Of a stretch of 34,448 nucleotides of DNA, positions 7,085-13,489 are shown piece by piece. The notes beneath the pieces are model-generated. The model worked only from the letters and a program-made list of their open reading frames with translations, did no database searches and had not been told where the DNA came from. Origin of the DNA: Streptomyces pathocidini (GTDB lineage: Bacteria; Actinomycetota; Actinomycetes; Streptomycetales; Streptomycetaceae); contig NZ_LIQY01000025.1 in NCBI RefSeq assembly GCF_001418495.1, positions 1-34,448 of the forward strand, in the 5' to 3' direction. The position numbers were made by a program, and so were the translations under genes. The number at the start of each line of letters is the position of its first letter. The stretch's first letter is position 1.

Positions 7085-7221
7085 ACTCCGTGCGAGCCGA
7101 CGCCTGAGCAGTCCGAACTCCCCTGGAGGGCTGTCGAGTTGGTGCACAGGCAGTAGTAGGCTCGCCACGATTATTGAACGGAACACCGCCCCGCACGTCC
7201 GGGGGTGACGTAGGAGACACC

Positions 7222-9828
7222 ATGCGCTTTCGCGGGAAATCCATCCGCAGGAAGATCGTGGGGCTGCTTCTCGTGCCGCTGGTGTCCCTCACCTCCATCT
7301 GGGCGTTCGCCACAGTGATCACGGGCCGCGAGGCCCAGCATCTGCTGGCGGCCGCCGAAGTAGTGGGGCAGGTCGGCGTGCCGGCCGAGGACACCGTCCA
7401 GGCACTCCAGCAGGAGCGCCGCAGGAGTCTGGTCTTCCTCGCGGACCCCCGGGACGACGGCGCCCTGGCCCGGCTGCACAGCCAGGAGCGGCTCACCGAC
7501 AAGGTGGTGGAACGATTCCGCCGCAACGCCGAGAACGAAGACGTCCGCGACGACCTCGGCCACGGCGCCAGTGCCGCACTGGACGAGGTGCTGCGCGGCC
7601 TGAACGACCTCGCCGACCTCCGCCGCAAAGTGGAGGAGCGGGCGGTCACCCGCTCGTACGCCTTCTCCGCGTACAACGTGCTCGTCGACCCCGGGTACGA
7701 GTTCCTGGGCGCGCTGCACGCCGTGAACGACACCGAGCTGGACAAGCAGGGCCGCGCGCTGGTCGGCGTCGCCCAGGCCCGTGAGGTCCTCGCCCGCGAG
7801 GATGCGCTGATGGCCTCGGGACTGGCCGCCCAGAGCCTGGACCAGCGTGAACTGCGGCAGATGTCCGACCTGATGTCGAGCCGCAAGCTGCTCTACGACA
7901 CCAACCTGCCGCTGCTCCCCAGCCAGGAGCGCATGGCCTTCGAGGACTTCTGGAACGGCCCGATCACGGCCAACATGCGCTCGGTCGAGGAACGCGTCAT
8001 CGCCGCGGGCTTCGAGGGCGTCCCGGCCGAGGTCACCGCGGACCGCTGGGAGTCCGCGGCCAGCAAGGTCCTGGACGAACTGGCCGAGCTGAACGCCCGG
8101 GAGGGCCGCGCCTACCAGGACCGGGTGGAGCCCGCCGGCTTCACCGTGCTCGCCCAGGCCGGCGTCTCCGCCATCCTCGGCTTCGCCGCCGTGGTCGCCT
8201 CCTTGGTGGTCTCCGTCCGCATCGGCAGCAGCCTGATCCGCGACCTCATGCGGCTGCGCAAGGACGCCCAGGAGGTCTCCGGCATACGGCTCCCCAGCGT
8301 CATGCGGCGCCTGGCCGCCGGCGAGTCGGTCGACGTCGAGGCCGAGACGCCCCAGCGCAAGCACGGCGAGGACGAGGCCGGCCAGGTGGCCAGCGCCTTC
8401 GACACCGTGCACCGGGTGGCCGTCGAATCCGCCGTCAAGCAGGCCGAGTTGCGGCGCGGTGTCTCCGAGGTGTTCGTCAACCTCGCCCGCCGTAGCCAGG
8501 TGCTGCTGCACCGCCAGCTCAACCTGCTCGACGCGATGGAGCGGCGTACCGAGGACTCCGAGGAGCTCGCGGACCTCTTCCGGCTCGACCACCTCACCAC
8601 CCGCATGCGCCGCCACGCCGAGGGCCTGGTCATCCTCTCCGGGGCGGCCCCCTCCCGGCAGTGGCGCAAGCCGGTCCGGCTGATGGACGTCGTCCGGGCG
8701 GCCGCCGCCGAGGTCGAGGACTACGAGCGCATCGACGTGCGCAGGCTCCCGAAGGTCTCCGTGGTCGGCCCGGCCGTCGGCGACCTGACCCACCTGCTGG
8801 CCGAACTCCTCGAGAACGCCAGTGTGTTCTCGCCCCCGCACAGCTCCGTCCAGGTGGTGGGTGAGCGGGCCGCGAAGGGCTTCACCCTCGAGATACACGA
8901 CCGCGGGCTCGGCATGGCGCCGGACACCCTGCAGGACGCCAACCTGCGGCTCGCCGAGACCCCCGAGTTCGAGCTGTCCGACACCGACCGGCTCGGCCTG
9001 TTCGTCGTCAGCCGCCTCGCCCGCCGCCAGGGCGTACGCGTCTCCCTCCAGGCCTCGCCGTACGGCGGCACGACCGCGGTCGTCTTCATCCCGGCCGCCG
9101 TCCTCATCGAGCCCTCGGACGGCGGGACCACAGGTGGCGGAGACGAGAGCGAGCGGACCGCCGGGCGGGGGGTGCCCAGGAGCGGCCCCGCCGCGAAGGA
9201 GCGGACTCCCGCGCCGCTGGCGGAGGTTCGCCGCCCCACGAGCGTCCCCGCCGGGCCCGCGGAGCGCGAGACCCCGGTCCGCTCCGCGCCGAGCCGCCTG
9301 GACGAACGGCGCGGACCCGTACGCCGTCCCGTCGAGGAGCACCAGCAGGCCCGCGAGACCGACGGGGCCGAGGTGCGGGCCGAGGGGCTGATGCCGTTGC
9401 CGCGCCGCCGCTCCCCGGTCCTCGTCTCGGACCACGGGCGGCCCGTCGAGGGGCGGCGGCGCCCGGAGCCCGCGGAGTCCATACGCCCCGCGGACGCGGA
9501 GACCATACGGGAGGCCGAAGGGACCGTGACGGTCACGGACCCCGCGGAGGACGCGGAAGCACAGCTGTCCGGATTGCCCCGCAGGGTGCGGCAGGCGAGC
9601 ATCGCCCCGCAGCTGAAGGACGATCCGGCACCGGAGGCCGGGCAGGACCCGGAGAGCGCGGGCTCGGCGCCCGAGCGCGACGCCGACCTGGTCAAGTCGC
9701 GCATGGCCTCGCTCCAGCGCGGCTGGCAGCGCGGCCGGGCGGACACCGGCACCGAGGGCACGCCCGAGGACGCCGGATCCGCCGGGGACACCGCACGAGG
9801 AACGACACCTGAGGGGGACGGTCGATGA
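7222..9828 (+). CDS. cvnA: Conservon sensor: nitrate/nitrite-sensing-type histidine-kinase-like membrane protein
   Basis: An 868-residue membrane sensor of the CvnA type. A first membrane segment (about residues 13-35) leads to a large extracytoplasmic NIT-type helical domain. A second membrane segment (about 303-330) and a HAMP-like region follow, then a kinase-like core. The ATPase motifs are visible: ELLENASVFSPP (N box, near 525), DRGLGM (G1, near 560) and LGLFVVSRLA (near 590). The phosphoacceptor region reads DHLTTRMRRHAEG, a variant H box. The last 240 residues are charged and proline-rich, probably disordered. The ATG at 7222 has TAGGAG at good distance, and the longer frame from 7174 does not. 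It overlaps cvnB by 4 bases. In studied conservons this protein works with CvnB, C and D in a membrane complex. Confidence 0.9.
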   Translation: MRFRGKSIRRKIVGLLLVPLVSLTSIWAFATVITGREAQHLLAAAEVVGQVGVPAEDTVQALQQERRRSLVFLADPRDDGALARLHSQERLTDKVVERFRRNAENEDVRDDLGHGASAALDEVLRGLNDLADLRRKVEERAVTRSYAFSAYNVLVDPGYEFLGALHAVNDTELDKQGRALVGVAQAREVLAREDALMASGLAAQSLDQRELRQMSDLMSSRKLLYDTNLPLLPSQERMAFEDFWNGPITANMRSVEERVIAAGFEGVPAEVTADRWESAASKVLDELAELNAREGRAYQDRVEPAGFTVLAQAGVSAILGFAAVVASLVVSVRIGSSLIRDLMRLRKDAQEVSGIRLPSVMRRLAAGESVDVEAETPQRKHGEDEAGQVASAFDTVHRVAVESAVKQAELRRGVSEVFVNLARRSQVLLHRQLNLLDAMERRTEDSEELADLFRLDHLTTRMRRHAEGLVILSGAAPSRQWRKPVRLMDVVRAAAAEVEDYERIDVRRLPKVSVVGPAVGDLTHLLAELLENASVFSPPHSSVQVVGERAAKGFTLEIHDRGLGMAPDTLQDANLRLAETPEFELSDTDRLGLFVVSRLARRQGVRVSLQASPYGGTTAVVFIPAAVLIEPSDGGTTGGGDESERTAGRGVPRSGPAAKERTPAPLAEVRRPTSVPAGPAERETPVRSAPSRLDERRGPVRRPVEEHQQARETDGAEVRAEGLMPLPRRRSPVLVSDHGRPVEGRRRPEPAESIRPADAETIREAEGTVTVTDPAEDAEAQLSGLPRRVRQASIAPQLKDDPAPEAGQDPESAGSAPERDADLVKSRMASLQRGWQRGRADTGTEGTPEDAGSAGDTARGTTPEGDGR

Positions 9829-10268
9829 CCGCACCGAACGCCGCAGCCAATCCAGCTTCGAGCGGCGGACCAGGGGAGCTCGACTGGCTCCTCGACGAGC
9901 TGGTCAAACACGTCGAAAGCGTCAAGATCGCGCTGGTGCTCTCCGGCGACGGGCTGCCCAGGGGCGCTTCACAGGACCTGACGCGGGAGGACAGCGAGCA
10001 TCTGGCCGCCGTCGCCTCGGGGTTCCACAGCCTGGCCAAGGGTGTGGGCCGCCACTTCGAGGCGGGCACGGTCCGGCAGACCGTGGTGGAGCTCGACCAG
10101 GCGTTCCTGTTCGTCACCGCAGCCGGGGACGGCAGCTGCCTGGCCGTCCTGGCCGACGCGGACTCCGACGTCGGCCAGGTCGCGTACGAGATGACGCTGA
10201 TGGTCAAGCGCGTCGGCGTCCATCTCGGCACGGCGCCGCGGGCCGGCGGCGCCCCCACCGGTGGGTGA
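9825..10268 (+). CDS. cvnB: Roadblock/LC7-domain protein of the conservon
   Basis: A 147-residue soluble protein with a roadblock/LC7 fold covering nearly its whole length: LDWLLDELVKHVESVKIALVLSGDG, and later the strand pair LFVTAAGDGSCLAVLAD. Such proteins regulate small GTPases as GAP-like or scaffold subunits, and in conservons they pair with the GTPase CvnD. The start ATG overlaps the cvnA stop (ATGA), so translation is coupled. A short proline/glycine tail ends the protein. Assignment is strong from the order A-B-C and from the sequence. Confidence 0.9.
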   Translation: MTAPNAAANPASSGGPGELDWLLDELVKHVESVKIALVLSGDGLPRGASQDLTREDSEHLAAVASGFHSLAKGVGRHFEAGTVRQTVVELDQAFLFVTAAGDGSCLAVLADADSDVGQVAYEMTLMVKRVGVHLGTAPRAGGAPTGG

Positions 10269-10278
10269 CGGTCCGGCC

Positions 10279-10734
10279 ATGAGCGAAGGCAACACGGGCC
10301 GCGACGGCGGCGGGGGGACGTTCTGGGTCGACGACGACGCCGGTCCCGTCGTGCGGCCGTACGCCATGACCCGCGGCAGAACCCGCAGCGAGGCCGAGGA
10401 GAAGCTCGACCTGATCGCGGTGGTCATAGCCGAGAGTGCCCACGGCCTGGACGAGGACGCGTACGACGCCGACACGTACGACGACCTCGACGGACCGGGG
10501 GCCGGCCACGACCTGTCACCGGAGCACCTGGACATCGTCGAACTGTGCCGGGAAGCGCCCCAGTCGGTCGCCGAGGTGGCGGGTGAACTGGACCTCCCGC
10601 TCGGCGTCGTCCGAGTGCTCCTGGGCGATCTGATCACCGCGGAGCTGGTCCGCGTCTCCCGGCCGGTGCCCCCGGCGGAGCTGCCGGACGAGTGGATCCT
10701 CCGCGAGGTGATCGACGGGCTGCGGGCCCTGTGA
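10279..10734 (+). CDS. cvnC: DUF742 protein of the conservon
   Basis: A 151-residue protein with the DUF742 hallmarks: VVRPYAMTRGRTR near the N-terminus and a winged-helix-like C-terminal half (LDIVELCREAPQSVAEVA, then LDLPLGVVRVLLGDLI). Between them is an acidic, Asp/Tyr-rich insert around residues 56-78. The role within conservons is poorly known. The helix-turn-helix fold suggests DNA or protein binding. The ATG at 10279 is 10 bases after the cvnB stop. A GTG at 10261, in the same frame and overlapping cvnB, is an alternative, and neither has a clear ribosome-binding site. Confidence 0.87.
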   Translation: MSEGNTGRDGGGGTFWVDDDAGPVVRPYAMTRGRTRSEAEEKLDLIAVVIAESAHGLDEDAYDADTYDDLDGPGAGHDLSPEHLDIVELCREAPQSVAEVAGELDLPLGVVRVLLGDLITAELVRVSRPVPPAELPDEWILREVIDGLRAL

Positions 10735-10796
10735 ACGGGGTACGGCCGCGCCGCGGGAACCACGTCGCGGAGCGGGTGCGCGGGGGCGATCGGGCC

Positions 10797-11042
10797 TTAC
10801 GGGACGGGGCGCGCCCGGACGGTCGACGCGGGGTTCTGGTGGCCGCCGCTGGCGATCATCCGGACCTCGTCGCGGTCGCTGATCTCGGCTCTGACGATGC
10901 CGGTGTCATCCGTGTACACCGGGTGACCGCCCGGGCCCTTGCCGTCCGTGCGGCGCACGGTGACGACGTCCTCCTCGGGGTCGGCCGGGGCCGTGCTGCC
11001 GGGGTGCGCGAAGACCAGCTCGTACTTCTCGCTCTGCGACAT
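10797..11042 (-). CDS. Small protein of unknown function, inserted between cvnC and cvnD
   Basis: An 81-residue protein starting MSQSEKYELVFAHPG, with later DDVVTVRRTDGKGPGG-like and GIVRAEISDRDEVRMIASG stretches. It has no signal peptide or membrane segment. It resembles small Streptomyces proteins that I recall as a domain of unknown function (perhaps DUF6296), but I am not certain of that name. The start is well supported: GAGGAGG lies 5 bases before the ATG. The gene runs against the conservon, convergent with cvnC (62-base gap) and divergent from cvnD (234-base gap). It may be under the same control region as cvnD. Confidence 0.75.
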   Translation of the reverse strand: MSQSEKYELVFAHPGSTAPADPEEDVVTVRRTDGKGPGGHPVYTDDTGIVRAEISDRDEVRMIASGGHQNPASTVRARPVP

Positions 11043-11087
11043 GACGCCCTCCTCTGCCGTGAGTCCCTTGTCCTGGCCCACAGCCCT

Positions 11088-11131
11088 GAATGCCCCAAAG
11101 GGGGCATTCCACACCCGTTCGGCCGGGTGTG
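11088..11131. promoter_or_regulatory. Two abutting 22-bp palindromes between the small gene and cvnD
   Basis: The first palindrome (11088-11109) has arms GAATGCCCC and GGGGCATTC around AAAG. The second (11110-11131) has arms CACACCCG and CGGGTGTG around TTCGGC. Both are 22 bases and touch without a gap. They lie 46 bases upstream of the minus-strand gene and about 146 bases upstream of cvnD, in a divergent promoter region where a terminator would not be expected. This favours operators or a 5' leader structure. Confidence 0.6.
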
Positions 11132-11276
11132 TACGGGTGGGCACCCAGTGCGACCGGCGGCGGAGTCCGGGACTCCCCGCCGGAACGCTTCCCGACAGCC
11201 GCCTGCCACATGGAAGTTGGCGGGGGCTACAGTCCTCCCGGAACCATCCCCGTACAGCGATTCGGAAGAAGAGACC

Positions 11277-11885
11277 ATGGTGCTCAGGGGCGCTGAGCGG
11301 CGTCGTGTGTTCCCCGTAGAACCGGTGACGCTCAAGATTCTTGTGGCGGGCGGCTTCGGCGTCGGCAAGACGACCCTCGTCGGCGCGGTCAGCGAGATCA
11401 AACCGCTGCGCACCGAGGAGTTGCTGACCGAGGCCGGACGGCCGCTGGACTCCCTGGAGGGGGTCGAGGAGAAACGCACCACCACCGTGGCGATGGACTT
11501 CGGCCGCATCTCGCTGCGCGAGGACCTGGTGCTGTACCTCTTTGGCACGCCGGGGCAGGATCGTTTCTGGTTCCTCTGGGACGAGCTGGCCACCGGCGCC
11601 CTCGGCGCGGTCGTCCTGGCCGACACCCGCAGGCTCTCCGACTCCTTCGCCGCCATCGACTACTTCGAGCGGCGCGGTATCGCCTTCACCGTCGCCGTCA
11701 ACTGCTTCGACGGCGCCGAACGCTACCCGGCGGACTCGGTGCGCGAGGCGCTCGACCTCGACTCGGGTACGCCGGTGGTGCTGTGCGACGCACGGGAGCG
11801 CGGATCGGCCAAGGAGGTGCTGATCGCGGTGGTCGAGCACGCGTTGAAGACCGGAGCGCTGCGCCGCCAGCCCGCCGCCACCTGA
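11277..11885 (+). CDS. cvnD: Conservon Ras-like GTPase (ATP/GTP-binding protein)
   Basis: A 202-residue GTPase. The P-loop is GGFGVGKTT (about residues 21-29). TTTVAMDFG follows, then the switch-II motif GTPGQDRFW near residue 90. The base-recognition motif reads NCFDG instead of the usual NKxD, as is common in CvnD proteins. GGAAGAAGAG lies before the ATG. It lacks a lipid-anchor signal. In conservons it works with CvnA-C, with nucleotide state probably set by the roadblock subunit. Here it is separated from cvnC by an opposite-strand gene, so it must have its own promoter. Its stop is 8 bases from the convergent glpK stop. Confidence 0.9.
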   Translation: MVLRGAERRRVFPVEPVTLKILVAGGFGVGKTTLVGAVSEIKPLRTEELLTEAGRPLDSLEGVEEKRTTTVAMDFGRISLREDLVLYLFGTPGQDRFWFLWDELATGALGAVVLADTRRLSDSFAAIDYFERRGIAFTVAVNCFDGAERYPADSVREALDLDSGTPVVLCDARERGSAKEVLIAVVEHALKTGALRRQPAAT

Positions 11886-11893
11886 GGGCCGGC

Positions 11894-13396
11894 TCAGTCC
11901 TCGAGCCAGCCGAAGCTGCGCTGTACCGCCTTGCGCCAGTTGCGGTACTCGCGCTCCCGTACGCCCGCCTCCATCCGCGGCGTCCACTCCCGGTCGTGCT
12001 TCCAGTGCGCCCGCAGCTCGTCCAGGTCCTGCCACACACCGGTGGCGAGACCTGCCGCGTACGCCGCGCCCAGGCAGGTGGTCTCCGTGATCGCCGGCCG
12101 GATGACCGGCACGTCCAGCACGTCCGCCTGATGCTGCATCAGCAGGCCGTTCGCGGTCATCCCGCCGTCCACCTTCAGTGAGGTGATCTTCACCCCGGAG
12201 TCCTGGTACATCGCGTCCACGACCTCGCGCGTCTGCCAGCTGGTCGCCTCCAGCACGGCCCGCGCCAGGTGGCCCTTCGTCACGTACCGCGTCAGGCCGG
12301 TGATGATGCCCCGCGCGTCGGAGCGCCAGTACGGGGCGAACAGCCCGGAGAAGGCCGGGACGATGTACGCCCCGCCGTTGTCCTCGACGCTCTCCGCCAG
12401 CGGCTCGATCTCCTCGGCCGCCGCGATGATGCCGAGCTGGTCGCGGCACCACTGCACCAGTGCGCCTGTGATCGCGATCGCGCCCTCCAGGCAGTAGACG
12501 GGCCGCTGGCCGCCGAGCTGGTAGCCCATCGTCGTGAGCAGCCCGCTCCTGGACTGCACGGGCCGGTTGCCGGTGTTGAGCAGCAGGAAACTGCCCGTGC
12601 CGTACGTGTTCTTGGCGTCGCCCACGCCGTAGCAGGTCTGGCCGAACAGGGCCGCCTGCTGGTCGCCGAGCGCGGACGCGACGGGTACGCCCGCGAGTTG
12701 GCCGACTGCCGTGCCGTACACCTCGGAGGAGGAGCGGATCTCCGGGAGGATCGCCTCGGGCAGGTCCATCGCGGACAGGATGGCCGGGTCCCACTTGAGG
12801 GTCACCAGGTCCATCAGCAGGGTGCGGCTCGCGTTCGTCACGTCGGTGACGTGTACGCCGCCATCGGGGCCGCCGGTGAGGTTCCAGATGAGCCAGGAGT
12901 CGATCGTGCCGAAGGCGATCTCGCCGTTCTCGGCGCGGGTGCGCAGGCCCGGCACGTTCTCGAGCAGCCAGGCGGCCTTCGGCCCCGAGAAGTAGCTGGC
13001 GAGCGGCAGGCCGGTGGTCTCGCGGAACCGGTTCTGCCCGACCACGCCGCCGAGCCGGGTGCACAGGGCCGCGGTCCGGGTGTCCTGCCAGACGATCGCA
13101 TTGTGCACGGGCTTGCCGGTCGCCCGGTCCCACAGGACGGTGGTCTCGCGCTGGTTGGTGATGCCCAGCGCGCTGAGCCGGTCCGGGCGGAGCCCCGCCT
13201 TGGCGAGCGCGCCCGCCACGACGGCCTGCGTCTTGACCCAGATCTCGGTGGCGTCGTGCTCCACCCAGCCGGGCTTGGGGAAGATCTGCCGGTGCTCGCG
13301 CTGGTCGACGGCTACGATCGCGCCGCCCCGGTCGAAGATGATGCAGCGGCTGGAGGTGGTGCCCTGGTCGATTGCGGCGACGAACGTGTCCGTCAT
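11894..13396 (-). CDS. glpK: Glycerol kinase
   Basis: It phosphorylates glycerol to glycerol-3-phosphate with ATP in the cytoplasm. This FGGY-family protein of 500 residues is full length. It starts [19 protein letters not shown] (phosphate-binding) and has [23 protein letters not shown], and the FGGY signature region [13 protein letters not shown] with [12 protein letters not shown]. The ATG at 13396 has CAGGAG upstream. No glycerol facilitator, glycerol-3-phosphate dehydrogenase or GylR-type regulator is adjacent, so this is an isolated copy. A short hairpin (GAGCCC/GGGCTC, 13425-13439) sits about 30 bases upstream of the start. Confidence 0.95.
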
Positions 13397-13489
13397 GGAC
13401 GTCTCCTGAGTGCTCGGCGGGGGCGAGCCCTCTGGGCTCCGATCCAGGATGGTCCGGCTTCTCCGTGGGCCGGAGGGGGCGCGCCGGGG

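Follow-up and report, generated by a model that had tools for sequence, protein, structure and literature searches.

A DUF6296 gene on the opposite strand separates cvnC from cvnD in a Streptomyces pathocidini conservon, at a seam that is repeatedly open in orthologous loci

The closest described counterparts of the locus analyzed here are the conservons cvn1-13 of Streptomyces coelicolor, which have four core genes, cvnA to cvnD, in the same order and on the same strand. Extra genes have been reported at some conservons. Thus, cvnE (cytochrome P450) and cvnF (GAF) follow cvnD and are overwhelmingly found with a CvnA that has no sensory domain, and CvnF8 acts on CvnA8 (PMC13343842). In the mycobacterial mfp conservon, mfpA is encoded after the mfp operon, and its product interacts with the GTP-bound form of the GTPase (PMC4316618); MfpA is described elsewhere as a pentapeptide protein. 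Here, we describe a conservon on a stretch of 34,448 nucleotides of Streptomyces pathocidini (contig NZ_LIQY01000025.1; the whole stretch is hereafter called the window). As in cvn1-13, all four core genes are present with their defining domains, in order and on one strand: a CvnA with HATPase domain, a roadblock CvnB, a DUF742 CvnC and a GTPase CvnD. Its CvnA is of the NIT type, as in cvn1-6 (PMC8510531). Unlike in the usual conservon, cvnD is split from cvnC by a small gene of the DUF6296 family on the opposite strand, and it probably has its own promoter. We consider it likely that a free-standing DUF6296 gene was inserted in a recurrently opened seam between cvnC and cvnD (the C-D seam), that cvnABC and cvnD would form two transcription units, and that the small protein would be independent of the conservon.

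The small gene resembles cvnE and cvnF in being an extra gene at a conservon, but it lies inside the conservon rather than after cvnD, is reversed, and accompanies a CvnA with a NIT domain (143 bits in Pfam). Its product matches DUF6296 only, and the gene that follows cvnD is a reversed glpK. The C-terminal LPxR motif described for CvnA (PMC4316618) is present in the window as LPRR. The likeness to the mfp conservon is one of gene position: in both cases an extra gene lies beside the gene of the conservon GTPase, although mfpA, unlike the small gene, comes after the operon. The window's gene also differs from the other PF19813 genes compared, since it alone was found between cvnC and cvnD, and it has no TAnnnT in the 100 bases upstream.

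An earlier sequence-only reading of this DNA had described cvnA, cvnB and cvnC as overlapping or nearly touching, and cvnD as set off by 542 bases holding a reversed 81-codon gene with an excellent ribosome-binding site, and the sequence and its open reading frames (ORFs) bear this out. The cvnA ORF opens at a TTG at 7174, has an ATG with a ribosome-binding site at 7222 and stops at 9828, overlapping the cvnB start at 9825. The cvnB stop at 10268 overlaps or nearly touches cvnC, depending on whether cvnC starts at the GTG at 10261 or at the ATG at 10279. The cvnC stop at 10734 is followed by the gap (10735-11276), in which the minus-strand ORF runs from 11042 to 10797, preceded by AGAGGAGG, whose GGAG is invariant across 8 aligned DUF6296 leaders. 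An 81-codon ORF by itself is within chance for such GC-rich DNA, in which that frame is open far longer. A chance ORF is ruled out by a full-length match to Pfam PF19813 (DUF6296; 109.1 bits against a gathering cut-off of 27.2, E 1.1e-31, profile positions 1-78 of 78). This match, together with a gene-like composition (GC of 0.70, 0.52 and 0.96 at codon positions 1, 2 and 3) and an identity of 65-69% to four named homologues, indicates that the small gene is real. The AlphaFold2 prediction from five sequences is rich in beta structure but weak (pLDDT 66), a Foldseek search of the PDB with this model returned nothing at E <= 0.001 (best 0.79), and a sequence-profile search found no solved relative (best E 0.66); we therefore claim no function for the protein. 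A phage origin was also considered and rejected, as a viral-contig scan with alignment A1 gave no relative. A search for DUF6296 in one open-access library gave no paper.

The reading had further proposed that the small protein may be a new conservon component or regulator. The distribution of the family speaks against this. Many genomes of the genus, though not all, have a DUF6296 gene: the Pfam model finds one in 83 of 199, and a similarity search with the window's protein in 150 of 392. At the level of the order the family occurs in 106 of 293 genomes and 5 of 9 genera. The window's genome has a single copy. When DUF6296 neighbourhoods were queried by tblastn with the window's cvn, glpK, EAL and IclR proteins, matches were found in none of 24 loci of 8-12.5 kb and in none of 29 loci of about 3 kb, the two sets sharing some genomes. 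No conservon gene is listed in four annotated plasmid neighbourhoods of DUF6296 genes, for which the gene table is incomplete. Among 30 genomes, chosen from the cvnD and DUF6296 match lists for having both genes on the same contig, the closest pair is 143,645 bp apart. ORF clustering in 28 DUF6296 neighbourhoods, aimed at a recurrent neighbour as a clue to function, yielded groups of up to 15 loci that are apparently clade-specific or consist of spurious ORFs, and nothing was drawn from them.

Additional evidence comes from the C-D seam of orthologous conservons. At E <= 1e-94, the search of 392 genomes of the genus gave cvnD relatives in 312, from which 100 orthologous loci were sampled, mostly the best-scoring ones, so that the sample leans towards the window; 99 pass this threshold and L203 enters at 2.7e-94. 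Seam states were coded from tblastn matches. The genes cvnC and cvnD overlap in 43 loci (estimated spacing -17 to -23), whereas the seam is open in the other 57, either as a short gap of 36-338 bases (18 loci) or with cargo (39 loci). The split as such is thus not unique to the window. On the other hand, DUF6296 is found at the seam in none of the 100 loci, so that the small gene does not always sit between cvnC and cvnD, a point that the reading had proposed to check. The cargo consists of an oxoprolinase in 28 loci, a hydrolase in 8, a TauE-like pair in 2 (named by inspection, without a Pfam search) and, in L157, universal stress protein (Usp) and dehydrogenase genes. The hydrolase cargo is an alpha/beta hydrolase gene, with or without genes for a TetR regulator and SpoIIE/MASE1 proteins; its loci are L103, L104, L115, L128, L131, L133, L135 and L140, of which five have the TetR regulator and three also hold reversed SpoIIE-phosphatase and MASE1 genes. 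By eye, the short gap upstream of cvnD in locus L134 shows a sequence of about 25 bases repeated in tandem.

On a FastTree tree of CvnA-B-C-D, no fewer than 14 changes are required to explain the full set of seam states, and no fewer than 4 to explain open as against overlapping seams. The latter figure agrees with a quick IQ-TREE tree, which comprises 98 rows and leaves out L111, L154 and L160 as sparse. The description of conservons as tightly packed holds for 19 of the 20 paralogues sampled but fails for this orthologous group. The 20 paralogous regions come from ten genomes. A cvnC was found in 19 of them, with an estimated distance to cvnD of -38 to 194 bases and no cargo; in the remaining one, L205, no cvnA, cvnB or cvnC was found within 5.2 kb upstream of its cvnD-like gene. 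Since cargo is absent from 19 of the 20 paralogues, it seems to be characteristic of this orthologous group.

The most frequent cargo differs from the DUF6296 gene in its arrangement. Roughly 1,200 residues long, the oxoprolinase is a hydantoinase A/B fusion encoded co-directionally between cvnC and cvnD (for example at L111:1298-4885, and in 27 further loci among L101-L204). Its start, judged by the first residue of the query, lies 23-29 bases past the cvnC stop in 20 of 27 measurable loci, and its stop codon ends 20 bases inside cvnD in 16 of 27, with two more loci overlapping. This overlap resembles that of cvnC with cvnD in the plain form. On the basis of this gene order, the oxoprolinase version looks like a five-gene conservon operon, with the oxoprolinase as a candidate fifth conservon protein. 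In L160 the end of the contig cuts the locus and no cvnC is seen, and L148 has just a short oxoprolinase match of low identity; its seam measures 763 bases and may hold what is left of a former cargo gene. Searches of one open-access library found no paper linking conservons to 5-oxoprolinase or to glycerol kinase.

How might the separated genes be expressed? The reading had suggested that cvnD has its own promoter. The element TACAGTCCTCCCGGAAC upstream of cvnD contains TACAGT, which we take to be a -10 hexamer from general knowledge of sigma-70-type promoters, followed by CGGAAC. The corresponding pattern, TAnnGT-N3-8-CGGAAC, occurs once in the window and is present before cvnD in five of the 100 relatives (L110, L152, L111, L116 and L139), all of which have an open seam with other cargo; it was found before cvnD in none of the 43 overlapping loci and not in L157. 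On both strands of the 2.24 Mb that make up the 100 loci it has nine occurrences, five of them just upstream of cvnD, and the other four represent one antisense site within cvnA of related loci. A shorter word, GGAACnATC, precedes cvnD in the window, L157, the TauE-like pair and four short-gap loci that form one clade. In 37 of 71 loci the leader of cvnA contains CGGAAC as well; a word of this length is judged to be frequent in such DNA, so that an operator shared by cvnA and cvnD is no more than a possibility. Upstream of cvnA itself, the promoter-like element GTAGTAGGCTC is conserved in 69 of the 71 orthologues whose upstream sequence could be read, the exceptions being L171 and L189. It is therefore plausible that cvnD has its own promoter, and cvnABC and cvnD may constitute two transcription units.

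Taken together, we propose the following scenario. The C-D seam of an intact NIT-type conservon would have been opened, and a DUF6296 gene would have been inserted there on the opposite strand, bringing along part of its 5' leader; the leader of the window's gene does align in part with those of DUF6296 genes elsewhere. The conserved element upstream of cvnA would drive cvnABC, which converge with the small gene. A separate promoter, some 40-50 bases before the ATG of cvnD, would drive cvnD, which diverges from the small gene. The DUF6296 protein would work independently of the conservon, while the four Cvn proteins would still act together. The small gene would then probably be a lodger, not a new part of the signalling system.

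Several observations weigh against this scenario. The cvnD element was picked out post hoc, its -35 region is poor by eye, and a usual promoter scan for both hexamers found nothing between 10600 and 11400. It is absent before cvnD in 95 of the 100 relatives, including 18/18 short-gap, 8/8 hydrolase and 25/28 oxoprolinase loci, and the five relatives that have it come from two lineages. In seven aligned homologous leaders, DUF6296 genes are preceded by CATAAT, GATAAT or GATAGT some 55-65 bases before the start; expression of the window's gene is uncertain, because such a TAnnnT is missing upstream of it. On the tree, the window stands on a long branch beside L101 (overlap) and L157 (cargo) with a support of 84, its placement being unsure, and these nearest relatives are distant (path >= 0.6), so that the insertion is not bracketed. 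Finally, non-linkage elsewhere is compatible with a lineage-specific role here.

Such a role is the essence of the alternative in which the DUF6296 protein serves this conservon as an accessory or regulator specific to the lineage, for instance by binding CvnD or CvnC, or by controlling cvnD via the shared divergent promoter region. Besides the position of the gene between cvnC and cvnD, and the precedent of accessory genes at other conservons such as that of CvnF8 (PMC13343842), this idea draws on two perfect inverted repeats that lie next to each other, their centres separated by 22 bp, inside the 234-base region between the DUF6296 gene and cvnD. Shuffling yielded two or more such repeats 4 times in 2000, an estimate made post hoc, and among 49 distinct DUF6296 upstream stretches the window's is the only one with two (0 of the 48 others), two others having one elsewhere in the stretch. 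We nevertheless regard this alternative as improbable: the family lies away from conservons in every other neighbourhood checked, no orthologue has the gene at this place, and the known accessory genes differ in the position and the type of CvnA described above. Somewhat less improbable, though still doubtful, is a broader possibility in which the glpK-linked conservon would use its C-D seam as a docking slot. Different lineages would then install different genes there, some of them true operon members such as the oxoprolinase, and this cargo, DUF6296 included, would provide the GTPase with an input, an output or an expression switch specific to the lineage.

The small gene could also act mainly by convergent transcription, damping cvnC or itself through the collision of the DUF6296 and cvnABC transcripts. 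The two stop codons are just 62 bases apart and no terminator-like site was found between them, but terminators without T-runs are invisible to that scan, expression of the small gene is uncertain, and the arrangement is conserved in 0 of 100 orthologues; we judge such antisense control to be very unlikely. An artefact, by which cvnC and cvnD were wrongly joined or the small ORF is no gene, would be conceivable in a draft genome of 743 contigs. The flanks comprise an IclR regulator gene upstream and, downstream, glpK and an EAL/CBS/GGDEF gene. Two orthologous loci, L105 and L107, share this order, which gives no sign of a chimeric contig; with the full-length Pfam match of the ORF, an artefact is hardly credible. 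Insertion of a free-standing gene in an open seam thus remains our preferred explanation. The features of the locus are collected in Table 1. For CvnD, the intact P-loop was read from the translation, and the Pfam match is to ATP_bind_1 (118 bits), with GTP_EFTU below the cut-off.

Table 1. Position and character of the genes and sequence elements of the S. pathocidini conservon locus (window coordinates)
Feature	Position	Strand	Remarks
Conserved promoter-like element before cvnA	7153..7163	+	GTAGTAGGCTC
cvnA	7222..9828	+	histidine-kinase-like sensor, NIT sensing domain and HATPase (Pfam)
cvnB	9825..10268	+	roadblock/LC7 protein, Robl_LC7 (Pfam)
cvnC	10261..10734	+	DUF742 protein (Pfam)
DUF6296 gene, 81 aa	10797..11042	-	Pfam match; ribosome-binding site AGAGGAGG
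Two adjacent perfect inverted repeats	11088..11131		arms 9 bp/loop 4 nt; arms 8 bp/loop 6 nt
Putative cvnD promoter	11228..11244	+	TACAGTCCTCCCGGAAC: -10-like TACAGT, then CGGAAC
cvnD	11277..11885	+	small Ras-like GTPase, intact P-loop GGFGVGKTT
glpK, glycerol kinase	11894..13400, gene start approximate	-	convergent with cvnD; marker of the orthologous locus

The arrangement has consequences for the way in which conservons are surveyed. In a 2026 survey, cvnD was counted as syntenic only when three genes from cvnA (PMC13343842). As a result of the inserted small gene, the window's cvnD is the fourth gene after cvnA and does not conform to this spacing; by the same reasoning, cvnD would escape the rule in orthologues with whole genes in the seam. 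Hence, a strict spacing criterion can overlook cvnD when a conservon is split.

With respect to the biology of conservons, the locus suggests that the GTPase gene can move to a transcription unit of its own, and that one orthologous conservon takes up extra genes time and again at the very junction between the genes of the DUF742 protein and the GTPase. The passenger-like DUF6296 gene cautions against reading meaning into position alone. The oxoprolinase version is worth more than the DUF6296 version in this respect, as it offers a testable candidate for an additional conservon protein.

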